Shown: positions 13,885 to 36,105 of the stretch, piece after piece
How positions within the stretch are numbered: position 1 is the stretch's first letter
Layout of the letters: each line of letters opens with the position of its first letter
Virus record (IMG/VR): IMGVR_UViG_3300042564_004221
Location: 1-64,000 of that record
DNA length: 64,000 nucleotides
Strand: one strand, 5' to 3'
Source: a virus
Translations under genes and position numbers: made by a program
The notes under the pieces: generated by a model
The model's database searches: none
What the model was told of the DNA's origin: nothing
Seen by the model: only the letters and a program-made list of their open reading frames with translations

Positions 13885-13897
13885 ACTTAAATTTAAT

Positions 13898-17338: not shown

Positions 17339-17339
17339 A

Positions 17340-17924: not shown

Positions 17925-17928
17925 ATCT

Positions 17929-19299
17929 TTATTTTATAAACCACCAAGTGCCAAACCATTCTTTAGTTACATTTGGTGTATATCCGTGTTTATTACAAAA
18001 TTCATCAACCGCTGGGTTAACACCAAAAACTCCATTGTATATTGGAGTTCCGTCTAACATTGAAGTATAGATGTATTTGTCCTTTCTATTTGGAGCAAAG
18101 TTGGGGTCGTTATACCAATCCATATTAATATAATCGTGTCCTGAAAAAACACCACCTTTTTTTAACTTTGGAAACCACAGATTAATGTCCTCAACAACAA
18201 AATCGTATGCGTGGTTTGCATCAATAAAGATAAAATCTAACGATTCATCTTGGAACATATCAGCAGCAACTTCAGAGGTTGCTCTTACCATAATACCTCT
18301 ATCTTCAAGTCCTTTAATACTTTCCATAGTTTCTTGGTAAGCGTCAATATGGTCTTTATGATTACTAGCATCTTCGTATTCAACACCTAAGGGTCTCCAA
18401 ACATCCACCATATAGAGCGTTCCTCCCCAATTATTTAAAATGTTTTTGGAAAACTCTCCCTTAAACACACCAATCTCAACACCTTTACCATTTGGGATTA
18501 AATTATTTAAATCCCTAATTAAATCGTCTCTATGATTATACATAATATTTTTTTTGTAATCTTTTATTTTTTTTATTTTTGAATCTCCATTAAAAGTGTC
18601 CCCTATGAAATGACAGAATTTTCCATTCAAATTAATTTCATCGTTAAAATTTTCATCAACAATATAATAAAAATTTTTAAACGGAACAATTGTGTCAGTA
18701 TTTACTAAATTTTTTTTATTGAAGTAATGATTAATATATGGTTGTTCGGTAAATTGTCCTTCAGGATATACATCTCTTAAATTCAAAACATTCATAAAAT
18801 GTTCCCTTATTTTTGAACTATTTTTGAACATCATTAACCCGCTATTAAACGTATGTATCTTATTTTCTTTAAAAAAGGATATGTCTTCATTAGTGTAATT
18901 ACCTAAATTAAAAGGTTTTCTAAAATGATTTTCAAAGCTATAATCTTCAACAACCGCATATAATTTATCGTCTTCACACTCTTTAAAAATTACATCTAAT
19001 TTTAAATTTGCCCACACATCGGAATCCATATACATTAAATTGTCATAACCTAAAATATTTGCATCAAATATTCTTAATCTATTAAACGCGACATCATCTG
19101 TAGTTGTATTTTCCACCATATGGTAATATACATTTGGTCTTTCATAGTCTTTAAAGTTTTTTTCATAAAATTCTCTATCAGTAATGATGAGAACATCCTG
19201 ATTAGTATTATAAACATCTAACTTTAATACAGACAATTTTAACAATTCTGCATAAGAATCATTAAATCCAACCGAATAATATACCAAATTTTTACTCAT
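17929..19299 (-). CDS. Fusion of GT8-like glycosyltransferase and class I methyltransferase
   Basis: Residues 1-about 240 look like a GT-A glycosyltransferase of the GT8 kind: VYYSVGFNDSYAELL, FNRLRIFD and the metal-binding MYMDSDVWAN. Residues about 250-456 form a SAM-dependent methyltransferase: GVEIGVFKGEFSKNIL, LYMVDVWRP, LDFIFIDANHAYDFV and GGVFSGHDY. The second domain matches the Methyltransf_24 type often found with capsule or O-antigen genes. Joining transfer of a sugar and its methylation in one chain suggests a capping step. It overlaps the next gene by 4 bases. Confidence 0.7.
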   Translation of the reverse strand: MSKNLVYYSVGFNDSYAELLKLSVLKLDVYNTNQDVLIITDREFYEKNFKDYERPNVYYHMVENTTTDDVAFNRLRIFDANILGYDNLMYMDSDVWANLKLDVIFKECEDDKLYAVVEDYSFENHFRKPFNLGNYTNEDISFFKENKIHTFNSGLMMFKNSSKIREHFMNVLNLRDVYPEGQFTEQPYINHYFNKKNLVNTDTIVPFKNFYYIVDENFNDEINLNGKFCHFIGDTFNGDSKIKKIKDYKKNIMYNHRDDLIRDLNNLIPNGKGVEIGVFKGEFSKNILNNWGGTLYMVDVWRPLGVEYEDASNHKDHIDAYQETMESIKGLEDRGIMVRATSEVAADMFQDESLDFIFIDANHAYDFVVEDINLWFPKLKKGGVFSGHDYINMDWYNDPNFAPNRKDKYIYTSMLDGTPIYNGVFGVNPAVDEFCNKHGYTPNVTKEWFGTWWFIK

Positions 19300-19940
19300 C
19301 GCTTATATATCTCATATTTTGATAAATCAGGATATGGTAATTCCAAGTCCTCATTGTGTTTTTTGGTTCCATCTAAATTGTAGAATTGAGCCATCATTAA
19401 TAATCCTCTTGCAGATAACTCTGGCATCATATAAAAGTTCCAACCCAACATATCAAAATTATCATCGTGATAAGAACATTCCCTTCTTCCACTAAATCTG
19501 GCTCTTTTAAACCATAACATTGCTTGATAATCATCGGTTATGATTGCACCTCCTTTACTTAACTTTAATGTCTTATACGGACCTGTAAATGAAAGACACA
19601 TATGTGATTTTGGAATATACATATTGGCTGTAAATCTTAAAGCCGAGTCCCAAACATTACTTGGTGATAGTTGATATGCTCCTTTAATCTTATCACCTTC
19701 AACAGGTGTAAAATTAACCTTTAGTCCCGCATGAATAATCTCACAAGGTACAGATGGATATGTCTTGGATGGACAATCAATCTTTTTGTTTGTTAAACTC
19801 TTCTTTATATTTTTTTCGTAATACAACGCTAAAAATAGTGCATTACTCATATTATCTAATGCAACTGCATAGGGTGCTCCTGTATAATCACAAAGAGACT
19901 TTTCAAAATCTTCCGTTATTTTATGAACGCCTTGAGCCAT
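19296..19940 (-). CDS. Short DegT/DnrJ/EryC1-like aminotransferase (C-terminal domain absent)
   Basis: The 214-residue product resembles the large domain of DegT-type PLP enzymes: FEKSLCDYTGAPYAVALDN at the start, TYPSVPCEIIHAG, a PLP-contacting Asp in VWDSALRF (D98), and SFTGPYKTLKLSKGGAIIT, which contains the expected Schiff-base Lys (K123 or K126). Full-length family members have about 370 residues. The small C-terminal domain is missing and the gene stops cleanly against the next one, so this is a compact form rather than a recent frameshift. It may be inactive, act as a subunit, or make an amino-sugar. Confidence 0.6.
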   Translation of the reverse strand: MAQGVHKITEDFEKSLCDYTGAPYAVALDNMSNALFLALYYEKNIKKSLTNKKIDCPSKTYPSVPCEIIHAGLKVNFTPVEGDKIKGAYQLSPSNVWDSALRFTANMYIPKSHMCLSFTGPYKTLKLSKGGAIITDDYQAMLWFKRARFSGRRECSYHDDNFDMLGWNFYMMPELSARGLLMMAQFYNLDGTKKHNEDLELPYPDLSKYEIYKR

Positions 19941-19941
19941 A

Positions 19942-20631
19942 TTAATTTCTATTATCTATATAAACTATAATCTGTTCGTAGTAGTTAATAAAGTGTTCAT
20001 TCCATAAATCCCATTTAATATCAACACCATCCACAGAGAAAACCTCAATATTTGGGAACAATCTTAGGTATGTATCCCTGAAAATTCTAAACTTTTGTTT
20101 TTCTTCTTCACCACTTAAATGCCATTCACCAACAATTTTTCTAACATTTTCCTTAATCCAAAAAATATTCTTGTTGTTGAAAACACTATATTCACCGCCC
20201 TCACAATCGGTCTTAATAAAATCTATTTTAGTTATATTAAACTCCTCTCTAATATTATCAAAGGTTGTGGTTTGAGCCATTTTCATTCCATCCTCCACAC
20301 CGAATAAGTTAAGTTCAAAATAACCTTCAACATCACTAATACCTTTATTTATGATTCTAACAGGACCATCTTTAACATTTTTGGTTAATGTTTCAATTTC
20401 TTGATGGCTAGGTTCTATACAATAAACTTGTTTTGGATTTTTATTTAGAATAGAATAGGTAAATGGTCCAACACTTGAACCGAAATCAAATACAATATCA
20501 CCTTCTTCTACTTCGAAGAATCTTTCATAAGCTTTTTGAATGAAAATCTCTTCTATTATTTGACTTTTATGGTATTTCGAGGACTCTGAATCCCCTTCCA
20601 TCCAACCCCAATCAAAATTATCTAAATTCAT
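19942..20631 (-). CDS. FkbM-family methyltransferase
   Basis: This is a class I methyltransferase of about 229 residues with the FkbM features: VFDFGSSVGPFTYSIL (SAM glycine loop), VYCIEPSHQEIETL and IDFIKTDCEGGEYSVF (the D-x-E-G-x-E hallmark). It probably O-methylates a sugar. I chose the ATG at 20631. A TTG at 20649 would add six residues but is less likely. It begins the minus-strand sugar operon and is divergent from the plus-strand glycosyltransferase gene that starts 50 bases away. Confidence 0.75.
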   Translation of the reverse strand: MNLDNFDWGWMEGDSESSKYHKSQIIEEIFIQKAYERFFEVEEGDIVFDFGSSVGPFTYSILNKNPKQVYCIEPSHQEIETLTKNVKDGPVRIINKGISDVEGYFELNLFGVEDGMKMAQTTTFDNIREEFNITKIDFIKTDCEGGEYSVFNNKNIFWIKENVRKIVGEWHLSGEEEKQKFRIFRDTYLRLFPNIEVFSVDGVDIKWDLWNEHFINYYEQIIVYIDNRN

Positions 20632-20681
20632 ATCTTGAATAATAGACAAATTTTCTTATTTTTCAACTAAAACAAACATCT

Positions 20682-22964
20682 ATGTTAAAAATATTTGGAC
20701 ACGGGTCTTACATCGGAGATACAGGTTATAACCATCACACAAGGGATTTTTTCAGACATTTATCAAGTCACGCTCAAATTAAATTTAGAAATTTCACTGT
20801 CGGAAGCAGTTGGAATGGAATGAGTAGTGAACCTCACAATAAAGAGTATTATTTTAACAGCACTGACAGACAAATATTATACGAACAAGTCCTTTGGAAT
20901 AACGATGGAGGTAGGGATAATCATAAAATATATTCAAACTATTCTAAAGAATTTGTTCCCGATGTTAATATTGTTTTATGTGAAACAAACCATCACTTAT
21001 TTTATGATGAATATAATGGTCCAAAAATTGCATATAATGTTTGGGAATCAACCCTACAACCTCCACACTATTTTAACAAACTAAAAGAGTTTGACGAGAT
21101 GTGGGTTCCATCCAAATGGCAAAGGGATATGACAATTGCTCAAGGTTATGACCCAAATAAGATTAAGGTTGTTCCCGAAGGTGTTGATGTTAAAACTTTT
21201 TTCCCTGAAGAAACATCCCACGAATTAACCTCAGATGGAAGATTTAAATTCTTCTTGGCAGGTAGATGGGATTATAGAAAATCAATTAAAGAAATTATTG
21301 AAACATTCTTGAAAACTTTTGATAAAGATGAACCTGTTGACTTAATTGTTTCAATTGATAATCCGTTTTCGAATGACGGGTTAAACACAACAGAAGAAAG
21401 ATTGGAACACTATGGATTTACCGACGATAGAATCAAAATATTACATTTCCCACCAAGAGAAGATTACGTTAAGATATTAAAATCTTGTGATGCGTTTGTA
21501 TCTTGTGCAAGAGCTGAAGGTTGGAATTTACCTTTAATCGAAGCAATGGCATGTGGTACACCTTCCATTTATTCAAATTGTTCGGGTCAATTAGAGTTTG
21601 CCGAAGGTAAGGGTATTCCAGTTAAAATATCACACGAATTACCTGTTAGTGCCAGTTCATACAATCACTTCAATGATAATGTTGGAAACTATTACGAACC
21701 TGATTATAACGATTTGGGAAAACAAATGTGGGATGTGGTAACTAACTATCAATCGCACAAACAAAGAGCGTTAGAAGAGTCCGAAATCATTAGAAAAGAG
21801 TTTAGTTGGGAGCATATTGCCGAGATTGGAATTGAAACCCTAAATGATTTTATGGAAAGAAAACCTTGGCTAAACAAACCAAAGAAAGAAAATAGAGTTA
21901 TCGTCAGTTATTTGGACGGACCTAGAGTTGAGGTGTTGGGGGATGAAAATAAAGATTATCATATTGAATTTATCAATGGTGATACTGATGAAGTAATCCA
22001 CTCCCAAACCATATCAAACAATATGTGGGTTGCGGCAGGTAAGAAATACTACATACCTTGGATTATAAAAATCAATGGACATATCTATGATGTCTTTGAC
22101 TTAACAAATAAAACTGTCCTAATTTCATTAGAATCAAAATCTTTAGGTGATACAATTGCTTGGGTTCCATACGCAGTTGAACTCCAAAAGAAATACAATT
22201 GTAAGGTAATAGTTTCTACATTTATGAATGAACTATTCAAAGGATTGGAAGAATATAAAGATATTGAATTTATAAAACCTGGTCAATCTTGTGATTGTTA
22301 TGTAATTTATAGGATTGGTTGGTTTAGAAAGGACAACACTTGGACTGATTTTGACAGACAACCAAATCAACCTAACTTAATTCCCCTCCAACAAACCGCA
22401 ACCGATATTCTTGGACTTGAATTTAAAGAACTAAATTATGGGCTTAATTTTGTTAAAAAAGAACGTCCAATTAAGAAGGATTATGTTGTATTTGGACCTA
22501 GTGCAACTTCAGGTTGTAAAGAATGGGTTTACGCCAATTGGGTTTCCTTATCAAAGATGATTAAAGAACTTGGTTATGAAGTGGTTATATTAACAAAAGT
22601 TCCTTATAATATTGAGGGAGTGATTAATGTTTGGGGAGAACCTTTAGAGGTTGTTGCCAATTATTTAAAACACTCGGAAGCATTTATTGGTTTAGGTTCG
22701 GGTTTATCTTGGTTTAATTGGGCGTTGGGTAAACACACATTCATGATTAACGGATTTGCCGAACCAGGACACGAATTTACATCAAACTTAACAAGGATAT
22801 ACAACGACAATACTTGTATTTTTTGTTGGAATGATGAGGTATTTGTTTTTGATAGTGGTGATTGGGATTGGTGTCCTGTGTATAAAGGAACCAAAAAACA
22901 ACATATATGTCAAAAGTCTATTACACCATTACAAGTATTTAACCATCTTTTAACCAAAATATAA
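20682..22964 (+). CDS. Two-domain glycosyltransferase: GT4-like plus BAHT/TibC-like heptosyltransferase
   Basis: Residues 1-about 400 are a GT-B glycosyltransferase of the GT4 type: FLAGRWDYRKS and an E-x7-E in AEGWNLPLIEAMACGTP (near 279-287). Residues about 480-760 are GT9-like: LESKSLGDTIAWVPYAVE, FGPSATSGCKEW and SEAFIGLGSGLSWFNWAL. They end in a four-Cys motif, C-x2-C-x15-C-x11-C (about 711-741), followed by KSITP. This is the metal-finger signature of bacterial autotransporter heptosyltransferases such as TibC, which glycosylate Ser on repeat-rich adhesins using ADP-heptose. It is one of few plus-strand genes. Its stop overlaps the start of the next gene (TAATG). Confidence 0.8.
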   Translation: MLKIFGHGSYIGDTGYNHHTRDFFRHLSSHAQIKFRNFTVGSSWNGMSSEPHNKEYYFNSTDRQILYEQVLWNNDGGRDNHKIYSNYSKEFVPDVNIVLCETNHHLFYDEYNGPKIAYNVWESTLQPPHYFNKLKEFDEMWVPSKWQRDMTIAQGYDPNKIKVVPEGVDVKTFFPEETSHELTSDGRFKFFLAGRWDYRKSIKEIIETFLKTFDKDEPVDLIVSIDNPFSNDGLNTTEERLEHYGFTDDRIKILHFPPREDYVKILKSCDAFVSCARAEGWNLPLIEAMACGTPSIYSNCSGQLEFAEGKGIPVKISHELPVSASSYNHFNDNVGNYYEPDYNDLGKQMWDVVTNYQSHKQRALEESEIIRKEFSWEHIAEIGIETLNDFMERKPWLNKPKKENRVIVSYLDGPRVEVLGDENKDYHIEFINGDTDEVIHSQTISNNMWVAAGKKYYIPWIIKINGHIYDVFDLTNKTVLISLESKSLGDTIAWVPYAVELQKKYNCKVIVSTFMNELFKGLEEYKDIEFIKPGQSCDCYVIYRIGWFRKDNTWTDFDRQPNQPNLIPLQQTATDILGLEFKELNYGLNFVKKERPIKKDYVVFGPSATSGCKEWVYANWVSLSKMIKELGYEVVILTKVPYNIEGVINVWGEPLEVVANYLKHSEAFIGLGSGLSWFNWALGKHTFMINGFAEPGHEFTSNLTRIYNDNTCIFCWNDEVFVFDSGDWDWCPVYKGTKKQHICQKSITPLQVFNHLLTKI

Positions 22965-23842
22965 TGAACACAATTTTAATAATACTTAACTCAACTTCAT
23001 TGGGAGATACAATTGGCGTAATGCCGTGTATTGAAAAATTTATATCAAATACGACCGATAATGTCTTGGTTAAAACAAACCCAAGATACAATTCATTATT
23101 CACAAAATCTTATCCTATGGTTAAGTTCTTTGAGGAGGGAATGTTTTTTGACAAACAAATCTCATTAGATTATAACTTTAATCTACCCCTTCAAACAGGA
23201 TTTGCAAATCAACTTGGATTTATGGATTGGGAATATGTTCAACCTAAAGTTGATGTACCTGATAGTGAAAGACCAATAAAGGGGAAATATGTTACCATTA
23301 GTATCCACTCAACCTCTCAATTAAAATATTGGAATCACCCGTTAGGAATTAAAACTCAACCCTTATCACCAAATTGGAATGACCTTTGCGGGTTGTTAAG
23401 AAAAAATGGTTTAACTCCTGTTATTGTTGAAAGGGATGAAATGTTTGGTATTCCTCCATATCGAAATGGTATGCCAAACAAAGCAAATAAAAAAATAGAT
23501 TTATCTATTGATGAAACAATAAGATACATTCAACACTCCGAATTCTTTATTGGATTATCTTCAGGAATATCTTGGTTGGCACATGCAATGGATAAAAAAG
23601 TTGCAATGATTTCTAATTTCTCGGAAGATTGGCATGAGTTTGATTTGTCTTCTGAAAATTATAAAAGAATTACCAACAAATCAGTATGTAATGGATGTTG
23701 GAATAGAATAAATAAAGATTTTTCTTTTGATGCTGGTGATTGGTATTGGTGCCCAAAACATAGAGATACTGAACGCCAATTTGAATGCCATACATCAATA
23801 ACACCTGAAATGGTGTTTGATAACATTAAAGATTGGATTTAA
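22964..23842 (+). CDS. BAHT/TibC-like O-glycosyltransferase (heptosyltransferase family)
   Basis: The 292-residue product is a single-domain relative of the second half of its upstream neighbour: LNSTSLGDTIGVMPCIEK at the start, SEFFIGLSSGISWLAHAM, and a Cys motif C-x2-C-x17-C-x11-C (about 242-275) followed by TSITP. It lacks the large N-terminal helical part of full TibC. The family adds heptose to Ser of adhesins. The gene ends at 23842 and the giant Ser/Gly fibre gene on the other strand ends at 23843, so the two abut tail to tail. This makes the fibre an attractive substrate. No heptose-synthesis gene is present in the window. Confidence 0.75.
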   Translation: MNTILIILNSTSLGDTIGVMPCIEKFISNTTDNVLVKTNPRYNSLFTKSYPMVKFFEEGMFFDKQISLDYNFNLPLQTGFANQLGFMDWEYVQPKVDVPDSERPIKGKYVTISIHSTSQLKYWNHPLGIKTQPLSPNWNDLCGLLRKNGLTPVIVERDEMFGIPPYRNGMPNKANKKIDLSIDETIRYIQHSEFFIGLSSGISWLAHAMDKKVAMISNFSEDWHEFDLSSENYKRITNKSVCNGCWNRINKDFSFDAGDWYWCPKHRDTERQFECHTSITPEMVFDNIKDWI

Positions 23843-26800
23843 CTATTGAATAACCCTTAATTGATAAGAAAAATCAAGTTTTGATGAATTAGTATCATCT
23901 GAAACAACAACAAGAGCAACCGCTGCTTGGTATTGACACGAACTTGAGATTGAATATTGTTTTTCAAAATCAAAACAAACCATACCAGTTGCACTTATTG
24001 AAACACTATGCCCTGACTCAGAATCTCCAAAAAGTTGAATATAATCAACATCTGTACCTTGGCCGCCATTAGTAAATAAGTCACAATCGGCAATTAAAAT
24101 ATTGGCATATAGTTCGGCACTTGTATCGGTAAGATACCCATAAAAATAAGCGTTTCCACAAAGTCTAAATGTCAAGCTGGTTGTCCCATCTGCTATTACA
24201 ATTGGCGCAAAATTATGTAAGTGGTCTTTTGGCGCTGGCGTTGGAGCAACTAGTTCATCCCAAACACCACCATTCCAACCTTCGTTTGCGTTTCCATAAT
24301 AATAATCAGTAATCACTGGATTGGCAGAATCAGGAGTCACCATACTAGATATAGTTCCAGATGTTACCTGAACAACTGCGGTTACTTCTGCTGCTCCTGA
24401 TGTTCCTGAACTACCACTTGAACCAGCCGCTCCTGATGCTCCTGAAGAACCACTTGAACCTGAACTTCCGCTAGCACCTGACGAACCACTTGAACCAGCT
24501 GCTCCTGATGCTCCTGAAGAACCCGAACTACCATTAGTTCCTGAACTTCCACTTGAACCTGAACGTCCACTTGAACCCGAACTTCCTGAAGAACCACTTG
24601 AACCAGATGCTCCTGAACTTCCACTTGAACCCGAACTACCTGAAGAACCGCTTGAACCAGATGTTCCTGAAGAACCCGAAGAACCGCTAGTACCACTTGA
24701 ACCTGAGCTACCACTTGTTCCACTTGAACCCGAACTTCCGTTGGCTCCTGATGTTCCCGAAGAACCGCTTGAGCCAGATGTTCCACTTGAACCCGATGTT
24801 CCTGAACTTCCGCTAGTTCCCGAAGAACCTGAACGCCCACTTGAACCTGAGCTACCTGAAGAACCGCTAGTTCCACTTGAACCCGAAGAACCATTAGCTC
24901 CGCTCGTTCCCGAAGAACCAGAACTACCACTTGTTCCAGAACTACCTGAACTACCATTGGCACCGCTAGTTCCACTTGAACCTGAACTTCCGCTAGTCCC
25001 TGATGAACCAGATGTTCCGCTTGTTCCCGAAGAACCGCTTGAACCTGATGTTCCTGATGAACCAGAACTTCCATTTGCTCCACTCGTCCCTGAGCTACCT
25101 GAAGAACCAGATGTTCCTGACGAACCACTTGTTCCTGAAGAACCTGAACGTCCACTTGAACCAGACGAACCTGAGCTACCTGAAGAACCGCTTGAACCTG
25201 ATGTTCCTGATGAACCTGAACTACCATTAGCACCACTTGTTCCACTTGAGCCTGAAGAACCGCTAGTACCCGATGAACCTGAAGAACCGTTAATACCACT
25301 TGTTCCTGAACTGCCCGAAGAACCACTTGTTCCACTTGAGCCCGATGTCCCTGAACTTCCACTAGTCCCTGATGAACCCGAACGTCCACTTGAACCTGAT
25401 GAACCACTTGAACCAGATGTTCCTGATGAGCCAGAAGAACCACTTGTTCCGCTTGAACCTGAACTACCGTTAGCACCACTTGTTCCGCTTGAACCTGAAG
25501 AACCACTTGTTCCACTTGAACCCGAAGAACCATTGGCACCGCTTGTTCCCGAACTACCTGAAGAACCAGATGTTCCACTTGAACCTGAAGTTCCTGAGCT
25601 TCCGCTAGTACCTGAAGAACCTGAACGTCCGCTTGAACCAGATGAACCACTTGAACCTGAAGTTCCACTTGAACCCGAAGAACCACTTGAGCCAGAACTT
25701 CCACTTGTTCCCGAACTACCTGAAGAACCAGAAGTTCCTGATGAACCTGAAGAACCATTAGCACCGCTTGTTCCTGAACTACCCGAACTTCCACTTGTAC
25801 CCGATGAACCTGAGCTACCACTTGTACCTGAAGAACCGCTAGTTCCACTTGTTCCCGAACTACCTGAACTACCCGAAGAGCCACTTGTTCCCGAACTACC
25901 CGAACTACCATTAGCACCACTTGTTCCACTTGAACCTGAACTTCCGCTAGTCCCTGAAGAACCTGAACTTCCGCTTGTTCCTGAACTACCCGAAGAACCA
26001 CTAGTACCTGATGAACCTGAAGTTCCTGAACTTCCGCTAGTTCCTGATGAACCTGAACGTCCACTTGAACCACTTGAACCTGAGCTTCCGCTAACACCCG
26101 ATGAGCCGCTTGAGCCAGAACTTCCACTTGTTCCCGAACTACCTGAAGAACCACTTGAACCCGAACTACCACTTGTTCCTGAACTTCCAGAACTACCATT
26201 AGCACCACTTGTTCCTGATGAACCTGAACTACCACTTGTTCCACTTGAGCCCGAACTTCCATTGGCACCCGACGTTCCACTTGAACCCGAAGAACCGCTT
26301 GTTCCGCTTGAACCAGAAGTTCCTGAACTACCACTAGTTCCAGAAGAACCTGAACGTCCACTTGAGCCTGATGAGCCCGAACTACCTGAAGAACCTGAAG
26401 TTCCACTTGAGCCCGAAGAACCACTTGAACCCGATGTTCCTGACGAACCACTTGTTCCGCTTGAACCTGAACTACCATTGGCACCTGAAGTCCCTGAACT
26501 ACCACTCGAACCACTTGTTCCTGATGAACCTGAGCTACCATTGGCTCCACTTGTTCCCGAAGAACCTGAAGAACCGCTAGTACCCGATGAACCTGAAGAA
26601 CCGTTAATACCACTCGTTCCTGAACTGCCCGAAGAACCACTTGTTCCACTTGAGCCCGATGTCCCTGAACTTCCACTAGTCCCTGATGAACCCGAACGTC
26701 CACTTGAGCCTGATGAGCCCGAACTACCTGATGTTCCACTTGAGCCAGATGAACCTGAAGTTCCTGATGAACCTGAACTACCATTGACTCCACTTGTTCC

Positions 26801-29800
26801 TGATGAACCACTTGAACCAGATGTTCCCGAAGAACCTGAACTTCCACTTGTTCCTGATGAACCTGAACTTCCATTGACACCTGACGTTCCACTTGAACCT
26901 GAACTACCGCTAGTACCTGATGAACCTGAAGAACCACTTGTTCCACTTGAACCCGAAGAACCATTGGCACCGCTTGTTCCCGAACTACCTGAAGAACCAG
27001 ATGTTCCACTTGAACCTGAAGTTCCTGAGCTTCCGCTAGTACCTGAAGAACCTGAACGTCCACTAGAGCCCGAAGAACCGCTTGTTCCGCTTGAACCTGA
27101 GGTTCCACTTGTACCTGATGAACCCGAACTTCCACTTGTTCCACTTGAGCCACTTGTTCCACTTGAGCCTGATGAACCAGATGTTCCTGAGCTTCCGCTA
27201 GTTCCTGAAGAACCACTTGAACCTGATGTTCCACTTGAACCTGAACTACCATTGGCACCGCTTGTTCCTGAAGAACCACTTGACCCAGATGTTCCACTTG
27301 AACCCGAACTACCACTTGTTCCAGAACTACCCGAACTACCATTAACACCTGATGTTCCCGAAGAACCTGATGAACCGCTAGTTCCACTTGAACCTGAAGT
27401 TCCTGAGCTTCCGCTAGTTCCTGAAGAACCTGAACGTCCACTTGAACCTGAGCTACCTGAACTTCCACTAGAGCCCGAAGAACCACTTGTTCCACTTGAA
27501 CCTGAACTTCCATTGGTTCCGCTTGTTCCTGAAGAGCCCGAACTACCACTTGTTCCAGAAGAACCTGAACGTCCACTTGAGCCTGATGAACCTGAACTAC
27601 CTGAAGAACCAGATGTTCCCGAACTACCTGAGCTTCCACTTGAACCTGAGGTTCCTGATGAACCACTTGTACCTGAAGAACCTGAGCTACCATTAGCACC
27701 TGAAATTCCACTTGAACCGCTTGAACCAGATGTTCCCGAAGAACCTGAACTTCCACTAGTACCTGATGAACCAGAAGAACCACTTGTTCCACTTGAGCCC
27801 GAACTTCCACTAGTACCTGAAGAACCACTTGTTCCACTTGAGCCTGAAGTTCCTGAGCTTCCGCTAGTACCTGAAGAACCTGAACGTCCGCTTGAACCAG
27901 ATGAACCACTTGAACCCGAACTTCCACTTGTACCCGATGAACCTGAGCTACCACTTGTACCTGAAGAACCGCTAGTTCCACTTGTTCCCGAACTACCTGA
28001 ACTACCATTAGCACCTGAGGTTCCAGATGAACCACTTGAACCAGATGTTCCCGAAGAACCTGATGAACCGCTAGTTCCACTTGAACCTGAACTACCATTG
28101 GCACCTGACGTTCCACTTGAGCCTGAAGAACCGCTTGTTCCACTTGAGCCTGAAGTTCCTGAGCTTCCGCTAGTTCCTGAAGAACCTGAACGTCCACTTG
28201 AGCCTGATGAACCTGAACTACCTGAAGAACCAGATGTTCCTGACGAACCACTTGTTCCCGAACTACCCGAAGAACCACTTGTTCCTGAAGTTCCACTTGA
28301 ACCGCTTGAACCAGAAGTTCCTGAGCTTCCGCTAGTTCCTGAAGAACCTGAACGTCCACTTGAACCTGAGCTACCTGAACTTCCACTAGAGCCCGAAGAA
28401 CCGCTTGTTCCGCTTGAACCTGAGGTTCCACTTGTTCCACTTGAGCCTGATGTTCCACTTGAACCTGAACTACCATTGGCGCCGCTTGTTCCTGAAGAAC
28501 CACTTGACCCAGATGTTCCTGAAGAGCCCGAACTACCATTAGCTCCTGATGTTCCACTTGAGCCCGAAGAACCGCTTGTTCCACTTGAGCCTGAAGTTCC
28601 TGAGCTTCCGCTAGTTCCTGAAGAACCTGAACGTCCACTTGAACCTGAGCTACCTGAAGAACCGCTAGTACCACTCGAACCTGAACTACCACTTGTTCCT
28701 GAGCTACCTGAACTTCCATTGGCTCCGCTTGTTCCACTTGAGCCAGATGAACCTGAAGTTCCTGATGAACCTGAGCTACCATTGGCTCCACTTGTTCCCG
28801 AAGAACCTGAAGTTCCACTTGAACCCGAACTACCATTAGCTCCGCTTGTTCCTGATGAACCACTTGACCCTGATGTTCCACTAGTACCTGATGAACCCGA
28901 ACTTCCACTTGTTCCACTTGAGCCCGATGTCCCTGAACTTCCACTTGTTCCTGAAGAACCTGAACGTCCGCTTGAGCCTGAACTACCTGAAGAACCACTT
29001 GTTCCTGAACTACCTGAAGAACCATTGGCCCCGCTCGTTCCACTTGAGCCTGAACTTCCACTAGTTCCTGAACTACCCGAAGAACCACTTGACCCAGATG
29101 AACCTGAAGTTCCTGACGAACCTGAACTACCATTTACACCTGATGTTCCAGATGAACCACTTGAGCCCGAAGTTCCTGATGAGCCTGAACTACCATTAGC
29201 ACCACTTGTTCCGCTTGAACCAGATGAACCTGAAGTTCCTGAGCCACCCGAAGAACCACTTGTTCCTGAAGAACCTGAAGAACCATTGGCTCCTGAAGTC
29301 CCTGAACTACCTGAAGAACCAGATGTTCCACTTGAGCCTGAAGTTCCTGAGCTTCCGCTAGTACCTGATGAACCTGAACGTCCACTTGAACCTGATGAAC
29401 CACTTGAACCAGATGTTCCTGATGAGCCAGAAGAACCACTTGTTCCGCTTGAACCTGAACTACCGTTAGCACCACTTGTTCCGCTTGAACCTGAACTTCC
29501 ACTAGTACCTGAAGAACCACTTGTTCCTGATGAACCAGAACTTCCACTTGAACCTGCAGTCCCACTTGAGCCCGAAGAACCACTTGTTCCGCTTGAACCC
29601 GATGTTCCTGAACTTCCACTAGTTCCAGAAGAACCTGAACGTCCACTCGAACCAGAACTACCTGAACTTCCACTTGAACCCGAACTACCCGAACCTGATG
29701 TTCCTGAAGAACCACTTGAGCCAGATGTTCCTGAAGAACCACTTGAGCCTGAACTACCTGAACTTCCACTTGAACCGCTAGTTCCTGAAGAACCATCTCC

Positions 29801-32800
29801 ACCTGAAGCACCTTCTAAATTACTCTCCCAACTACAAAAAGTCCCTGTTCCACTTATTGATGTTACTTCTAATACTAATGCACCTGTTGAAGGATTATAA
29901 CTAACAACTTTACCTGTAAAATAATTCGTTACGCTATTTGCAATTAAAACGTTTTGTCCAATAGTATATGACAGTCCTGCCCCTACATTTAAACTAACAT
30001 TAAGACCGATAGTTAAACCACTTAAAGTTATACAGTCCGTAGACAATCCAGAATAATCAGAAGATGTTCCGCTAGTTCCTGAAGAACCACTTGAGCCAGA
30101 TGTTCCTGAAGAACCAGATGTTCCTGACGAACCACTTGAACCTGAGCTACCATTTGTTCCGCTAGAACCTGAAGAACCGCTCGTACCTGATGAACCTGAA
30201 CTACCATTAATACCTGATGTTCCTGAGCTACCACTTGAACCTGATGAACCTGATGAACCTGAACTTCCACTTGTTCCTGAAGAACCACTAGTTCCCGATG
30301 AACCACTTGAACCTGAAGTACCCGAGCTACCACTTGACCCTGATGTTCCAGAAGAACCTGAACTTCCACTTGTTCCTGAAGAACCACTTGAACCTGATGT
30401 TCCTGAACTACCTGAAGAACCGCTGGTTCCACTTGAGCCAGATGTTCCACTTGTTCCAGAACTACCTGAACTACCATTGGTACCACTTGAACCCGAACTT
30501 CCACTAGTTCCTGATGAACCCGAACTTCCACTAGTTCCTGATAAACCTGAACTACCTGAAGTTCCACTTGTTCCGCTTGAGCCTGAAGAACCAGATGTTC
30601 CTGAACTTCCGCTAGTACCTGATGAACCCGATGTTCCACTTGAGCCTGAACGTCCACTAGAACCTGAAGAGCCAGATGTTCCTGAAGAACCTGAGCTTCC
30701 ACTTGCTCCTGATGAACCACTTGAACCAGATGTTCCTGATGAACCTGAACTTCCATTAGCACCACTTGTTCCAGAACTACCCGAAGAACCTGAAGTTCCA
30801 CTTGAACCTGAAGAGCCAGAGGTTCCGCTTGAACCTGAACTACCATTGGCGCCGCTTGTTCCTGAAGAACCACTTGACCCAGATGTTCCTGAAGAGCCCG
30901 AACTACCACTTGTTCCAGAACTACCCGAACTACCATTAGCTCCTGATGTTCCTGACGAACCACTTGAACCTGAAGTTCCTGAACTTCCACTAGTACCTGA
31001 AGAACCTGAACGTCCGCTTGAACCAGATGAACCAGAACTACCTGAAGAACCGCTAGTTCCACTTGACCCTGAACTACCGCTAGTGCCTGATGACCCTGAA
31101 CTACCGCTAGTTCCACTTGACCCTGAACTTCCACTTGTTCCTGATGAACCTGAACTTCCATTAACACCACTTGTTCCACTTGAACCTGAACTTCCGCTAG
31201 TACCTGAAGAACCAGATGTTCCACTTGAGCCCGAACTACCATTAGCTCCTGATGTTCCCGAAGAACCACTTGACCCAGATGTTCCTGACGAACCACTTGT
31301 TCCGCTTGAACCAGATGTTCCTGACGAACCACTTGTTCCGCTTGAACCTGAACTACCATTCGCACCTGAGGTTCCACTAGTACCTGATGAACCTGAAGTT
31401 CCTGAACTACCACTAGTTCCAGAAGAACCTGAACGTCCACTTGAACCAGACGAACCACTTGAACCTGAACTACCACTCGAACCGCTTGTTCCTGATGAAC
31501 CAGAAGTTCCTGAAGAACCCGATGTTCCACTTGTTCCAGAACTACCTGAACTACCATTCGCACCTGAGGTTCCACTTGAGCCAGATGAACCTGAAGTTCC
31601 TGAGCTACCACTTGTACCTGAAGTTCCTGATGAACCTGAGCTACCATTGATTCCACTTGTTCCTGAACTACCCGAAGAACCGCTTGTTCCGTTTGTTCCG
31701 CTTGAACCAGATGTTCCTGAAGAACCTGAGGTTCCGCTAGTTCCTGAAGAACCTGAGGTTCCGCTAGTTCCTGATGAACCTGAACGTCCACTTGAACCAG
31801 AACTACCTGAAGAGCCAGATGTTCCTGATGAGCCAGAACTTCCACTTGTTCCCGATGAACCTGAACTACCACTAGTTCCTGATGAACCAGAACTTCCATT
31901 TGCTCCGCTTGAACCTGAAGTTCCTGAGCTACCACTCGTTCCTGAAGAACCGCTTGAACCAGATGTTCCGCTTGAACCCGAAGAACCATTAGCACCTGAT
32001 GTTCCCGAACTTCCACTTGAACCGCTAGTTCCTGAAGAACCCGAACTTCCATTAACACCACTTGTTCCACTTGAACCTGAACTACCGCTCGTACCCGAAG
32101 AACCTGAGCTACCTGAACCTGATGTTCCCGATGAGCCCGAACTTCCATTTGTTCCTGAAGAACCTGATGAACCGCTAGTTCCAGAACTACCTGAACTACC
32201 ATTAACACCACTTGTCCCACTTGAACCAGAACTACCGCTTGTGCCAGAAGAACCATCTCCTCCTGACGCTCCTTCTAAATTAGTTTCCCAATTACAAAAA
32301 GTTCCCGTTCCTGATATTGCGGTTACTTGTAAAACTAAAACACCTGTTGAAGGATTATAACTAATAACTTTACCTGTAAAATAATTACTTACACTATTTG
32401 CAACAAGTACACTTTGTCCTATTGTATAAGAAAGATTTGTACTTGCGGTTAAAGTAATATTTAACCCAACGGTTAATCCACTTAAAGTTATACAATCCGT
32501 AGATAATCCAGAATAATCAGAAGAGGTTCCGCTAGTTCCTGAAGAACCACTTGAACCTGAAGTTCCACTTGAGCCAGATGAACCTGAACTTCCATTAGTT
32601 CCGCTAGAGCCACTTGAACCAGAAGTTCCTGATGAACCACTTGAACCAGAGATTCCTGAAGAACCTGAGCTTCCGCTAGTTCCCGAAGAACCACTAGAAC
32701 CCGATGTTCCTGAACTACCACTTGTTCCTGATGAACCACTTGAACCCGATGTTCCCGAACTTCCTGAACTACCATTAACACCACTTGTTCCCGAAGAACC

Positions 32801-35077
32801 GCTTGAGCCAGAAGTTCCTGATGAACCTGAACTTCCACTTGTACCTGAAGAGCCACTTGAGCCTGAAGTTCCACTTGAGCCTGAAGAACCGCTTGTTCCA
32901 CTTGAACCTGAAGTTCCCGATGAACCTGAACTACCACTTATACCAGATGAACCTGAACTACCACTTATACCAGATGAACCTGAACTACCATTAGTCCCTG
33001 AAGAACCACTTGAACCAGATGTTCCTGAAGAGCCACTTGTTCCTGAAGAGCCACTTGTTCCTGACGAGCCACTTGTTCCTGATGAACCTGAAGAACCACT
33101 TGAGCCTGAACCTGATGTTCCAGATGAACCTGAACTTCCACTAGTTCCTGACGAACCACTTGAACCAGATGTCCCTGAACTACCACTTGAACCTGAGCTT
33201 CCACTTAAACCTGAACTACCGCTTGTCCCTGAACTACCCGAACTTCCGCTAGTTCCTGAAGAACCCGAACTGCCAGAACCTGATGTTCCTGATGAACCCG
33301 AACTTCCGCTAGTTCCTGAAGAACCACTTGTCCCTGAACTACCCGAACTTCCACTATTACCTGAAGAACCACTTGAACCTGATGTTCCCGAAGAACCTGA
33401 ACTTCCACTAGTACCCGAACTACCTGATGTTCCTGAACTTCCGCTAGTTCCTGATGAACCCGAACGACCGCTTGAGCCAGACGAACCTGAACTTCCACTA
33501 GTACCTGAAGAACCTGAACTTCCGCTAGTTCCTGATGAACCCGAAGTTCCTGATGAACCTGAGCTACCACCACTACCTGAACTTCCGCTAGTACCTGAAG
33601 AACCAGAGGTTCCTGATGAACCTGAACTTCCGTTAGTACCCGAACTACCTGATGTTCCGCTTGAACCACTTGTCCCTGAACTACCACTTGAACCTGATGT
33701 TCCAGATGAACCTGAACTTCCACCAGTCCCTGATGAACCACTTGAACCTGATGTTCCTGAACTTCCTGAACCAGATGTTCCCGAAGAACCTGAGCTACCT
33801 GAACCTGATGTTCCTGATGAACCCGAACTTCCACTTGTTCCTGAAGAACCACTTGAACCTGATGTTCCTGAAGAACCTGAACTACCCGAAGAACCATCTC
33901 CTCCTGAAGCTCCCTCCAAATTAGTATCCCAAGTACAAAAAGTACCTGTTCCTGATATTGCAGTTACTTGTAATACTAAAACACCCGTTAAAGGATTATA
34001 ACTAACAACTTGACCCGTGAAATAGTTAGTGACACTATTTGCAACAAGCACACTTTGTCCTATGGTATAAGAAAGTGAAAGTCCTACATTTAAGGTAGTA
34101 TTTAATCCAACTGTTAATCCGCTTAAAGTTATACAATCCGTAGATGAACCAGCATAATCGGGAGAAGTTCCACTTGTACCTGAACTACCACTTGAACCAC
34201 TTGAACCTGAAGAGCCACTTGAGCCCGAAGAGCCCGAGCTTCCACTTGAACCAGCATTTGTTGTAAATCCTGTTATTGTAACAACACCCCCATAGTTATT
34301 GACTAAGGTTAATGTTTCCGCAGAGCTACTAAACGTACCTCCTGTAATATATGTGTCGGTTAAACCTGTAATTGTTACGGTTCCACCTGTGGCATTATAA
34401 AGTTCTAAATTACCCGCATCATAATCCAAAGTACCACCTGTAACACCCGCCCCTGAACCTGATGTGATACCTGTGACTTGAATTACTGAACCTGTATTTG
34501 TAGTAAATAAAAGTGTATTACCCGAATAGGTTCCACCTGTAATAACAGGGTATGAACCATTAAAAATAATCCAATTTGAATCGTTTCTTGTTGCACCATT
34601 TTGACCTTCAATTGTTGAGCCAGTCCATGCGGTAATTAAATCAACACCTTGAGGTGTTGTTGACCTAACATTTGCACCATAATCACTAAAGATTACTGTA
34701 TTTGTTGCACCTGTCGCATTATCCCAAATGGTTTGATAATTGTCAATTTGAAATTGATAAAAAGTATTGCTCTCATACACATAAGCCAACATACCCAATC
34801 TTCTTCTACCTGTTGACCAATAGTCTGAGTTTAAAGTTAAGATATCAGGTGAATATCCAGCTCCCGTACCTTTAAAAAATTGAATAGGTATCGTTGAACC
34901 TGTTATAAAACCTGTTTGTCCTGAAAAGTTCCATACCAAGTCAGATAGGTTGGCAACCTCCATATAACCACCTGTATTAGATACAGAATAGGTTATACCA
35001 AAATTAGAAGTTGGTTCTAATGATAGTTGGAAACTTTGTCTCGACGCCGAGAGTGGATTATTATATGGAAAACTCAT
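23843..35077 (-). CDS. Giant collagen-like (Gly-X-Y) tail fibre, 3744 aa
   Basis: The largest gene here. Residues 1-275 form a beta-rich N-terminal region that probably attaches to the tail. From about 275 to 3560 it is nearly all Gly-X-Y triplets (GSS, GTS, with GAN, GVN, GIN and GRS), interrupted by three copies of a domain of about 90 residues (near 304-395, 852-943 and 1674-1762). Residues 3561-3744 form a non-repetitive C-terminal tip with several Cys, likely for receptor binding. There is almost no Pro in the repeat, so if a collagen triple helix forms it must be stabilised otherwise, perhaps by glycans on the roughly 2000 Ser/Thr. Arg appears about every 60-160 residues in GRSGSSG. Its ATG overlaps the previous stop (TAATG). 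Confidence 0.8.
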   Translation of the reverse strand: MSFPYNNPLSASRQSFQLSLEPTSNFGITYSVSNTGGYMEVANLSDLVWNFSGQTGFITGSTIPIQFFKGTGAGYSPDILTLNSDYWSTGRRRLGMLAYVYESNTFYQFQIDNYQTIWDNATGATNTVIFSDYGANVRSTTPQGVDLITAWTGSTIEGQNGATRNDSNWIIFNGSYPVITGGTYSGNTLLFTTNTGSVIQVTGITSGSGAGVTGGTLDYDAGNLELYNATGGTVTITGLTDTYITGGTFSSSAETLTLVNNYGGVVTITGFTTNAGSSGSSGSSGSSGSSGSSGSSGSSGTSGTSPDYAGSSTDCITLSGLTVGLNTTLNVGLSLSYTIGQSVLVANSVTNYFTGQVVSYNPLTGVLVLQVTAISGTGTFCTWDTNLEGASGGDGSSGSSGSSGTSGSSGSSGTSGSSGSSGTSGSGSSGSSGTSGSGSSGTSGSSGSSGTGGSSGSSGTSGSSGSSGTSGSSGTSGSSGTNGSSGSSGTSGSSGTSGSSGSGGSSGSSGTSGSSGTSGSSGSSGTSGSSGSSGSSGRSGSSGTSGSSGTSGSSGTSGSSGSSGTSGSSGSSGNSGSSGSSGTSGSSGTSGSSGSSGTSGSGSSGSSGTSGSSGSSGTSGSSGLSGSSGSSGSSGTSGSSGSSGTSGSSGSSGTSGSGSSGSSGSSGTSGSSGTSGSSGTSGSSGTSGSSGSSGTNGSSGSSGISGSSGSSGISGSSGSSGTSGSSGTSGSSGSSGTSGSSGSSGTSGSSGSSGTSGSSGSSGTSGVNGSSGSSGTSGSSGSSGTSGSSGTSGSSGSSGTSGSSGSSGISGSSGSSGTSGSSGSSGTNGSSGSSGSSGTSGSSGSSGTSGTSSDYSGLSTDCITLSGLTVGLNITLTASTNLSYTIGQSVLVANSVSNYFTGKVISYNPSTGVLVLQVTAISGTGTFCNWETNLEGASGGDGSSGTSGSSGSSGTSGVNGSSGSSGTSGSSGSSGTNGSSGSSGTSGSGSSGSSGTSGSSGSSGTSGVNGSSGSSGTSGSSGSSGTSGANGSSGSSGTSGSSGSSGTSGSSGTSGSSGANGSSGSSGTSGSSGSSGTSGSSGSSGTSGSSGSSGSSGRSGSSGTSGTSGSSGTSGTSGSSGTSGSSGTNGTSGSSGSSGTSGINGSSGSSGTSGTSGSSGTSGSSGSSGTSGANGSSGSSGTSGTSGSSGTSGSSGTSGSSGSSGSSGSSGSSGRSGSSGTSGSSGTSGSSGTSGTSGANGSSGSSGTSGSSGTSGSSGTSGSSGTSGSSGSSGTSGANGSSGSSGTSGSSGTSGSSGSSGTSGVNGSSGSSGTSGSSGSSGTSGSSGSSGTSGSSGSSGTSGSSGSSGSSGSSGRSGSSGTSGSSGTSGSSGSSGTSGANGSSGSSGTSGSSGSSGTSGSSGSSGTSGANGSSGSSGTSGSSGSSGTSGSSGSSGTSGANGSSGSSGTSGSSGSSGASGSSGSSGTSGSSGSSGRSGSSGTSGSSGTSGSSGTSGSSGSSGTSGTSGSSGLSGTSGSSGSSGTSGSSGSSGTNGSSGSSGTSGTSGSSGTSGSSGSSGTSGSSGSSGTSGSSGSSGTSGSSGSSGTSGSSGSSGTSGSSGTSGSSGSSGSSGSSGSSGTSGINGSSGSSGTSGSSGSSGTNGSSGSSGSSGTSGSSGTSGSSGSSGTSGTSSDYSGLSTDCITLSGLTIGLNVSLNVGAGLSYTIGQNVLIANSVTNYFTGKVVSYNPSTGALVLEVTSISGTGTFCSWESNLEGASGGDGSSGTSGSSGSSGSSGSSGSSGTSGSSGSSGTSGSGSSGSSGSSGSSGSSGRSGSSGTSGSSGTSGSSGTSGSSGSSGTAGSSGSSGSSGTSGSSGTSGSSGSSGTSGANGSSGSSGTSGSSGSSGTSGSSGSSGSSGRSGSSGTSGSSGTSGSSGTSGSSGSSGTSGANGSSGSSGTSGSSGGSGTSGSSGSSGTSGANGSSGSSGTSGSSGSSGTSGVNGSSGSSGTSGSSGSSGSSGSSGTSGSSGSSGTSGANGSSGSSGTSGSSGSSGSSGRSGSSGTSGSSGTSGSSGTSGSSGSSGTSGTSGSSGSSGTSGANGSSGSSGTSGSSGTSGANGSSGSSGTSGSSGSSGTSGANGSSGSSGTSGSSGSSGTSGSSGSSGSSGRSGSSGTSGSSGTSGSSGTSGSSGSSGTSGANGSSGSSGTSGSSGSSGTSGANGSSGSSGTSGSSGTSGTSGSSGTSGSSGSSGSSGSSGSSGRSGSSGTSGSSGTSGSSGSSGTSGTSGSSGSSGTSGSSGTSGSSGSSGSSGSSGRSGSSGTSGSSGTSGSSGTSGSSGSSGTSGANGSSGSSGTSGSSGSSGTSGSSGSSGTSGANGSSGSSGTSGTSGSSGTSGSSGSSGTSGSSGSSGSSGSSGRSGSSGTSGSSGTSGSSGTSGSSGTSGSSGSSGTSGSSGSSGTSGSSGSSGTSGSSGSSGISGANGSSGSSGTSGSSGTSGSSGSSGSSGTSGSSGSSGSSGSSGRSGSSGTSGSSGSSGTSGTNGSSGSSGTSGSSGSSGSSGSSGSSGRSGSSGTSGSSGTSGSSGTSGSSGSSGTSGVNGSSGSSGTSGSSGSSGTSGSSGSSGTSGANGSSGSSGTSGSSGSSGTSGSSGTSGSSGSSGTSGSSGTSGSSGSSGTSGTSGSSGTSGSSGSSGRSGSSGTSGSSGTSGSSGTSGSSGSSGTSGANGSSGSSGTSGSSGSSGTSGSSGSSGTSGVNGSSGSSGTSGSSGSSGTSGSSGSSGTSGVNGSSGSSGTSGSSGSSGTSGSSGSSGSSGRSGSSGTSGSSGTSGSSGTSGSSGSSGTSGINGSSGSSGTSGSSGSSGTSGANGSSGSSGTSGSSGSSGTSGANGSSGSSGTSGSSGTSGSSGSSGSSGTSGSSGSSGSSGSSGRSGSSGTSGSSGTSGSSGTSGSSGSSGTSGANGSSGSSGTSGSSGSSGTSGANGSSGSSGTSGSSGSSGSSGSSGTSGSSGSSGSSGVSGSSGSSGSSGRSGSSGTSGSSGTSGSSGTSGSSGSSGTSGSSGSSGTSGSSGSSGTSGANGSSGSSGTSGSSGSSGSSGTSGTSGSSGTSGSSGSSGTSGSSGSSGTSGANGSSGSSGTSGSSGSSGTSGSSGSSGSSGSSGTSGSSGSSGSSGRSGSSGTSGSSGTSGSSGTSGSSGSSGTSGANGSSGSSGTSGSSGSSGTSGANGSSGSSGTSGSSGSSGTSGSSGSSGSSGRSGSSGTSGSSGTSGSSGTSGSSGSSGTSGINGSSGSSGTSGSSGSSGTSGANGSSGSSGTSGSSGSSGSSGSSGSSGRSGSSGTSGSSGTSGSSGSSGTSGANGSSGSSGTSGSSGSSGTSGTSGSSGTSGSSGSSGTSGANGSSGSSGTSGSSGSSGTSGANGSSGSSGTSGSSGSSGSSGRSGSSGTSGSSGTSGSSGTSGSSGSSGTSGANGSSGSSGTSGSSGSSGTSGSSGSSGTSGSSGSSGSSGSSGSSGASGSSGSSGSSGSSGRSGSSGSSGTNGSSGSSGASGAAGSSGSSGASGSSGSSGSSGASGAAGSSGSSGTSGAAEVTAVVQVTSGTISSMVTPDSANPVITDYYYGNANEGWNGGVWDELVAPTPAPKDHLHNFAPIVIADGTTSLTFRLCGNAYFYGYLTDTSAELYANILIADCDLFTNGGQGTDVDYIQLFGDSESGHSVSISATGMVCFDFEKQYSISSSCQYQAAVALVVVSDDTNSSKLDFSYQLRVIQ
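24400..29780 (-). repeat. Long Gly-X-Y coding repeat tract (third block)
   Basis: About 5.4 kb of degenerate 9- to 18-base units encode GSS/GTS/GAN triplets. Ser codons alternate between the AGT and TCN families, so the DNA is much more varied than the protein. A larger unit is visible, starting at the single Arg codon (plus-strand cctgaacgtccacttgaacc or close variants) and recurring every 200-500 bases. This suggests growth by unequal exchange of longer units. Confidence 0.8.
29785..30065 (-). repeat. Internal domain repeat, copy 3
   Basis: This is the third of three direct copies of a segment of about 270 bases that encodes a 90-residue domain (contains STDCITLSGLTIGLN and ends NLEGASGGDG). 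The others are at about 32250-32525 and 33892-34165. All are flanked by Gly-X-Y repeats. Differences are scattered, many at third codon positions. Confidence 0.75.
32250..32525 (-). repeat. Internal domain repeat, copy 2
   Basis: This is the middle copy (STDCITLSGLTVGLN, then NLSYTIGQSVLVANS). It is closest in sequence to copy 1 at about 33892-34165. It has the same boundaries in the Gly-X-Y repeat as the other copies. Confidence 0.75.
33892..34165 (-). repeat. Internal domain repeat, copy 1
   Basis: This is the first copy in reading order, after a short Gly-X-Y block of about 30 residues. It has the same two Cys and the same SYTIGQSVLVANSV core as the others. It may act as a joint or trimerisation node between repeat blocks. 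Confidence 0.75.
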
Positions 35078-36105
35078 TATGCTACTGTATTACCTTTAAA
35101 GTAAATATTATCGTTGTCTATTATATAGAACGCTACGTCCGCAAATGTTGTATAAACTTTATAAGTGTTTGGCGGTATTGTTGTTCCTGTATATGTGAAC
35201 GAATTATTTCTTATTGTTGAATCTGTTATGACTGTACTCAACGTATTTGCAACTATACCAAAGTCAATCTGTGTTTGTTCTAATCCATTTGTGGCACTTA
35301 CTGGAATAACCCAAGTATACCAAGCAGCAACTCCAATACTTCCAGCTGGTACTTGGTGTGTTATAAAGTTATAAGCGGTAATTGCGTTTCCATAAGCGTC
35401 AAGACCTCCCGAAGTTTGTGGTACCACCTCAAGTTGTACCGCAGGGAATGTTCCACCCGTCCAACCTGAGAATGATACGTATTGGTTCATATCAATATTA
35501 AATTGAGTTGGGTTTATCGTATTAGGTATTGAAGAATTTGTGAATCCAAAGAATGTTCTTGAACTATCCAAATCATACAAGTATTGTCCGATACTTGTTG
35601 AACCTGTTTGAGGTTCAATAAATAAGTAAGCGAAATCAACTGATGGAGTCGATGACGGTGTAGGAGTTGGAGTTGGACTAGTACCAGGACCTTGTGTTGG
35701 AGTCGGAGTAACCGTTGGAGTAACTGTCGGCGTACGTGTATTTGTTGGAGTTACTGTCGGTGTACGTGTATTTGTTGGAGTTACTGTTGGTGTTCGTGTA
35801 TTTGTAGGTGTAATACTTGGAGTAACCGTATTAGTTGGAGTAATAGTTGGTGTTGGTGTTGGTGTTTTAGTTGGAGTTGGTGTAACACAAGCCAAGTTTA
35901 TCGTAACACCACTTAACATTTGTGTTTTTGTTTGAGCCGAATAATAGATTGTTTCATCCAAATAAACATTAAACGGACCAATGGCAGTTGAATTAGATGT
36001 TAACTTAACAAGATATGTAGAACACCCGCTTACGGTTACTTGCTGTTCTATCGCAGCATCACACCCCTCATAAATATTTGTAACGGTTATTACGTATGTT
36101 AACAT
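35077..36105 (-). CDS. Thr-Pro-linked fibre protein (342 aa)
   Basis: Residues 1-73 are a small beta domain with Cys (contains [18 protein letters not shown] and [12 protein letters not shown]). Residues 74-148 are a Thr-Pro linker with repeated [10 protein letters not shown] units; at DNA level these are near-identical tandem repeats around 35715-35815. Residues 150-342 form a beta-rich C-terminal domain ([17 protein letters not shown] onward) with no known enzyme motif. It is likely an accessory fibre or an adaptor for the giant fibre, whose gene it precedes with a one-base overlap. A TATTTATT motif, one mismatch from the recurrent octamer, lies 15 bases before the ATG. Confidence 0.55.

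Follow-up and report, generated by a model that had tools for sequence, protein, structure and literature searches.

We identified two plus-strand genes on a viral contig that encode enzymes with the fold of the TibC/AAH (BAHT) glycosyltransferases, directly beside the gene for a giant Gly-(Ser/Thr)-Ser fibre. In our assessment, both enzymes are probably phage-borne members of the BAHT group whose acceptor is the phage's own fibre, which would be coated with sugar for the virion. The enzyme fold and the general idea were already known, whereas the pairing of such an enzyme with such a fibre is new.

The stretch of DNA analysed (the window) comprises positions 1 to 64,000 of IMG/VR record IMGVR_UViG_3300042564_004221, a 99,789-base viral contig carrying T4-like genes for a tail sheath, a baseplate wedge, a T4 baseplate protein, DnaB, UvsX and a DNA polymerase. 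The enzymes, P0001 (20682-22964, +; 760 aa) and P0002 (22964-23842, +; 292 aa), are encoded by genes that share one base and stand alone amid minus-strand genes. The fibre gene (23843-35077, -; 3744 aa), the proposed acceptor, is convergent with P0002, the two stops abutting one base apart at 23842/23843. These genes, strands and lengths, and the abutment, are as given in the first-pass annotation; frames used in our scripts were stop-to-stop. A late-promoter motif, TATAAATA, occurred 12 times in the window against 8.4 expected and never before the enzyme genes, and scans for sigma-70 promoters and terminators near the genes did not rise above shuffles.

Both plus-strand genes encode TibC/BAHT-fold enzymes, as judged from sequence for P0001 and from sequence together with a predicted structure for P0002. 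The TIGR04414 profile (autotransporter O-heptosyltransferase; cut-off 200) matched residues 409-755 of P0001 with 224.5 bits and P0002 with 186.8 bits, below the cut-off, with the latter match starting at profile position 84. TibC (4rap) was the best PDB match by sequence for each (P0001, phmmer E=4.6e-40; P0002, E=6e-27). Using Foldseek, we found that TibC was also the best PDB match of the AF2 model of P0002 (pLDDT 90.1; TMq 0.86, E 1.9e-18), followed by WaaC-type LPS heptosyltransferases, while the likeness of P0001 to the TibC catalytic domain is by sequence only. The profile and structural checks suggested with the first-pass annotation therefore both returned BAHT enzymes. It had called the domains GT9-like; P0001 lies just over the Pfam GT9 cut-off (23.2 against 22) and P0002 falls below it (12 against 22).

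The first reading had also overlooked a GT4 glycosyltransferase domain in residues 1-390 of P0001 (PF00534 at residues 183-306, 7.5e-14). P0001 is thus a GT4-BAHT fusion, so its glycan may exceed one sugar. A borderline remnant of the TibC N-terminal beta-barrel domain (PF21129; cut-off 27) lies at 21915-22073 (+) in P0001, scoring 27.5 bits in a six-frame search and 23.1 bits in a whole-protein hmmscan. The barrel is absent from P0002, a stand-alone enzyme. In TibC, a beta-hairpin thumb with a hydrophobic tip serves ring assembly together with F368. The thumb of P0001 is shortened, with His at the TibC F368 position, and P0002 retains the thumb region and F368 without the F-V tip. Given the short thumb and His of P0001 and the lack of a barrel in P0002, a TibC-like dodecamer is doubtful; one speculation is that the P0001 barrel and the P0002 thumb complete each other.

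In TibC, D110 is the base, T226, K230, R286 and W305 are donor residues, P300/S294 form the stereoselectivity switch and Cys 339/342/358/370 are iron ligands spaced C-x2-C-x15-C-x11-C (PMC4358343). We found the four-Cys finger at 22815-22910 (+) in P0001, with the spacing of TibC, and at 23687-23788 (+) in P0002, as C-x2-C-x17-C-x11-C (C242, C245, C263 and C275, all invariant alignment columns). Each finger is followed by SITP, just as the first-pass annotation had read the two motifs. Across 109 homologues the four Cys are invariant, with metal binding predicted; D110 (where covered), K230 and W305 never vary and T226 is T or S. D110, T226, K230 and W305 are all invariant in a 28-row alignment, and D15 is the equivalent of the catalytic base in P0002.

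R286 contacts the adenine of ADP-heptose in TibC and is the sole base contact described there (PMC4358343). The corresponding residue is T in P0002 and V in P0001. Arginine was present at this position in 35 of 40 bacterial homologues, none of the 21 stand-alone phage homologues and 5 of the 48 other phage homologues. With this residue lost, the donor may not be ADP-heptose. No ADP-heptose synthesis gene was found among the ORFs scanned, which covered part of those in the record. The original BAHT assignment is thus upheld for the enzyme family, while heptose as the sugar is unsupported, since both proteins and almost every phage homologue lack R286.

The fibre, described initially as proline-poor and offering roughly 2000 Ser/Thr, contains 1641 Ser, 1099 Gly and 401 Thr, giving 2042 hydroxyl residues, and proline is absent from its Gly-X-Y runs. 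Among 993 scored Gly-X-Y triplets, the Y site was Ser in 933 (94%), Asn in 56, Ala in 4 and Thr in 0, with Ser (605) and Thr (302) at the X site; the Ser-Gly dipeptide occurs 962 times. Y-site serines are encoded by both codon families (TCN 587, AGY 346), which suggests selection at the amino-acid level and not merely a DNA repeat. Across 112 viral fibres, Thr accounts for 44% of the X residues but 5% of those at Y, where Ser reaches 81%. TibC acted on Ser and left Thr unmodified, and the two TibA sites located by mass spectrometry are both serines followed by Gly (PMC4358343). A Y site dominated by Ser and devoid of Thr would fit a Ser-only BAHT acceptor, a fit that is suggestive only, since fibre contigs lacking a detected BAHT gene show as strong a preference for Ser before Gly as those that have one. 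For the same reason we rejected Y-site Ser as a marker of BAHT-bearing fibres.

Outside the triplets, repeat splitting revealed an N-terminal non-repeat domain of 275 aa (34253-35077, -; 40-73% identical in close relatives), an 89-residue domain that interrupts the repeat three times (33896-34162, 32255-32521 and 29795-30061, all -) and has homologues in other fibre-bearing viral contigs, and a C-terminal non-repeat domain of 181 aa (23843-24388, -), which is 58% identical in L003 only, among the loci compared. An AF2 fold of the N-terminal domain reached pLDDT 39 and was discarded. Profile searches of the termini gave empty or marginal results, with no tail or fibre profile. The sole NCBIfam matches, to streptococcal collagen-like adhesins, probably reflect composition and not homology. 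No autotransporter gene, of the kind with strand-loop-strand repeats that adjoins BAHT genes in bacteria, was observed beside the enzyme genes, and the gene context suggests that the fibre is part of the virion.

We next turn to the pairing of enzyme and fibre in other viruses. To avoid circularity, contigs of at least 25 kb were chosen on the sole basis of a DNA pattern that encodes Gly-(Ser/Thr)2 repeats and were then searched with TIGR04414. A BAHT gene was found in 23 of 49 fibre-selected viral contigs, compared with 0 of 38 Gly-Pro-X repeat contigs (Fisher 1.5e-7) and, among AT-rich contigs that lack the fibre, 3 of 40 (Fisher 4.4e-5), counts that are not fully independent because some IMG/VR contigs are near-duplicates. 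The AT-rich controls pooled three unrelated pattern sets, an acidic-run pattern having been added since two gave few contigs. In total, 5 of the 42 AT-rich contigs carry a BAHT gene; 2 of these 5 also carry the fibre, and they are the only two fibre-bearing contigs in that set (2/2). The first-pass annotation had proposed looking for the same gene pair beside Gly-Ser fibres elsewhere; the pair does recur next to Gly-Ser/Thr-Ser fibres in many other phages, at rates well over those of both controls. A generic GT4 model showed no preference for the fibre (3/18 versus 5/21). Three AT-rich viral contigs (G145, G158 and G169) have a BAHT homologue and no Gly-Ser/Thr-Ser repeat; they may have another acceptor.

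Where both genes are present, enzyme and fibre are a median of 8.5 kb apart; of the 23 pairs, 17 are separated by no more than 15 kb, where random placement would give 8.6. The same fibre type is often the neighbour of P0002 relatives (27 loci) and of loci related to the BAHT domain of P0001 (41 loci). In the window, L003 and L359, enzyme and fibre are convergent with 6-24 bases between frames; in L381, L389 and L393 the two share a strand head-to-tail, with 3 bases between the fibre frame and the GT4-BAHT frame behind it, which in L381 and L389 also follows a further fibre gene. The pairing of enzyme and fibre is not a matter of chance. Fibre contigs without a BAHT gene (26 of 49) are mostly fragments, and because assemblies tend to break within the repeat, absence of either gene is weak evidence. 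An apparent counter-example, the lack of BAHT genes in all 31 close relatives retrieved through the baseplate-wedge gene (0/31), was set aside as uninformative: in the five whose relevant end was inspected (L349, L351, L353, L355 and L356), every contig breaks inside the fibre repeat and the far side is not assembled. Very close relatives are abundant in IMG/VR, with 591 stretches and wedge proteins up to 97% identical.

A tree of 109 BAHT domains placed P0001 and P0002 in a 58-row phage clade (support 100/93). The enzymes of Mel-JY01, G090, G086, G098 and LR756501 fall outside this clade, interspersed with bacterial enzymes, and a Gly-Ser/Thr-Ser fibre lies within about 2-15 kb of each of them. 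The bacterial label changes at least 5 times on well-supported branches of the tree, in which the MAG contigs L407, L408 and L443 were counted as phage by architecture. No bacterial homologue exceeds 35% identity to P0002. Enzyme and fibre are therefore paired in several separate lineages. L443 (JAAEPJ010000383.1) is a 34.6-kb contig in a bacterial MAG with both a BAHT gene and a Gly-Ser/Thr-Ser fibre; as it groups with the phage clade, it is probably a misbinned phage contig.

Mel-JY01 (GenBank PP395634.1) is a cultured phage of Microcystis elabens. Its 1226-aa protein annotated as an FkbM methyltransferase has a BAHT domain at its C-terminal end (TIGR04414 317 bits) and is encoded 1.7 kb from the frame (L404:2-3049) of a Gly-(Thr/Ser)-Ser fibre that spans 1016 aa or more. 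This BAHT domain is of another lineage than those of the window, and a stand-alone partner was not seen next to it. The fibre C-terminus weakly resembles head-decoration and virion structural families, a sequence match that hints at a place for the protein in the virion. The GenBank annotation omits the fibre frame and gives antisense 'hypothetical proteins' instead.

Other candidate acceptors are encoded nearby. Upstream of the fibre, translation revealed two mucin-like Thr-Pro proteins with long TPTNTVTPS repeats (35077-36105, -, and 36453-38795, -), the second also matching an SprB repeat profile; either could be an alternative or additional acceptor. Outside the window, at about 97.1-98.3 kb of the record (L358:15080-16348, -), we observed a gene for a GT60-type GlcNAc transferase (PF11397, 200.9 bits; phrog_24687). 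Protist GT60 enzymes start mucin-type O-glycans. A GT60-type gene is also present in three BAHT kin (G018, G002 and G186) and in G169, and absent from the other phages tested. One could thus suppose that P0001 and P0002 act chiefly on these Thr-Pro and SprB-repeat proteins or on other virion proteins, with the fibre a mere neighbour. We regard this as unlikely, since the BAHT enzyme studied modified Ser and not Thr (PMC4358343), whereas the TPTNTVTPS repeats are rich in Thr-Pro, and since the linkage found across phages is to the Gly-Ser/Thr-Ser fibre, the repeat type compared.

On the other side, the enzyme genes adjoin a sugar-modification cassette (12489-20649, -), identified by profile matches, with a shared pathway proposed from position. 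It encodes two FkbM methyltransferases (12489-13340 and 19942-20649), a hexapeptide acyltransferase (13321-13884), a DUF6625 protein (14521-16386), a NeuD/PglD-type sugar acetyltransferase (17340-17924; 161.6 bits, cut-off 160.8), a GT8 plus methyltransferase protein (17929-19299) and a DegT-type aminotransferase of 214 aa, shorter than usual (19296-19940), and an alpha/beta hydrolase (13898-14521) lies within the same region; all are on the minus strand. As a rule, genes of these kinds serve the synthesis or decoration of amino-deoxy sugars. The cassette would fit a glycan richer than one heptose and suggests another or an elaborated glycan. It also resembles surface-polysaccharide genes, and LPS is the substrate of WaaC and similar GT9 relatives, so the enzymes might instead alter the host surface (LPS, capsule or a host adhesin) against superinfection or for release, like some prophage glycosyltransferases. 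This seems improbable to us: their nearest kin by sequence and structure are protein O-glycosyltransferases, with the LPS heptosyltransferase I profile reaching 23.3 bits against 224.5 for TIGR04414, and they accompany a structural fibre gene across unrelated phages. That the fibre-proximal region is simply a hot spot for cargo, in which BAHT genes travel without a functional tie alongside the methyltransferases, acyltransferases and other glycosyltransferases found there, is very unlikely, as the linkage is specific (absent with Gly-Pro fibres, with generic GT4 genes equally common with and without the Ser/Thr fibre) and enzyme-fibre abutment is kept in two gene orders and several clades.

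Glycosylation of the phage's own fibre is thus the reading we favour. As put forward in the first-pass annotation, it is supported by the enzyme fold, the gene linkage and the Ser-Gly composition, from which we infer that the fibre is glycosylated; heptose as the sugar is not. We propose that the enzymes and the fibre would be made in the same infected cell, where P0001, with its borderline barrel, and the thumb-bearing, barrel-less P0002 would probably form a complex whose BAHT domains move sugar from a nucleotide donor to serines preceding glycine (962 candidate sites) while the fibre is still nascent or soluble. This first sugar may then be extended or decorated by the GT4 domain and the products of the adjoining cassette, and the coated fibre would become part of the virion as a rod or brush that is hydrophilic and resists proteases. 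Stability of a proline-free Gly-X-Y rod, protease resistance and masking are conjectured benefits. More tentatively, and with rather less confidence than we place in the reading of this locus, the data may reflect a widespread phage system for structural glycosylation with several separate origins, in which BAHT enzymes, split from or fused to extending glycosyltransferases and encoded beside Gly-X-Ser fibres, add hundreds of sugars per chain from a donor other than ADP-heptose, with a two-part barrel/thumb enzyme in this clade.

The closest known system is that of TibC/AAH (TIGR04414; PDB 4RAP, 4RB4; PMC4358343), with which the phage enzymes share the fold, the catalytic Asp/Lys/Thr/Trp, the four-Cys iron finger and a Ser-rich repeat protein next door. 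They differ in having no autotransporter, in being GT4-fused or barrel-less, in the loss of R286, in the shortened thumb of the fusion and in having a Gly-X-Ser fibre as partner. Mycobacteriophages are likewise reported to carry phage glycans on virion proteins, there capsid and tail-tube subunits and not a giant repeat fibre (Freeman et al. 2023, as cited in PMC12619734), and no BAHT link emerged from the literature searched. Mimivirus L230 hydroxylates Lys and adds glucose on the virus's collagen-like proteins (PMC9614988, PMC4691112); it too is a virus enzyme glycosylating the virus's own Gly-X-Y protein, but it is unrelated and serves in a eukaryotic host. BclA of Bacillus anthracis, a collagen-like exosporium glycoprotein with oligosaccharides (PMC9614988 references, PMC6222408), offers a similar surface filament, although it is a spore protein and not a viral one and bears different sugars. 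In the largely subscription-free literature searched, we found no paper joining BAHT/TibC enzymes with phages as carriers.

Many environmental phage contigs encode giant Gly-Ser/Thr repeat proteins, to which no chemistry has so far been assigned. If BAHT enzymes coat them, these fibres would rank among the known viral proteins richest in O-linked sugar, and phage enzymes would do the coating in the bacterial cytoplasm. This would bear on fibre folding without proline, on protease resistance and on encounters with hosts and grazers, would carry the BAHT family beyond virulence adhesins into viruses, and would provide an easy criterion by which to recognise glycosylated virion proteins. The cultured phage Mel-JY01 makes fibre glycosylation directly testable. 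Separately, the 512-aa product of L358:4860-6398 carries a complete Fe/Mn superoxide dismutase in its N-terminal part (PF00081, PF02777).
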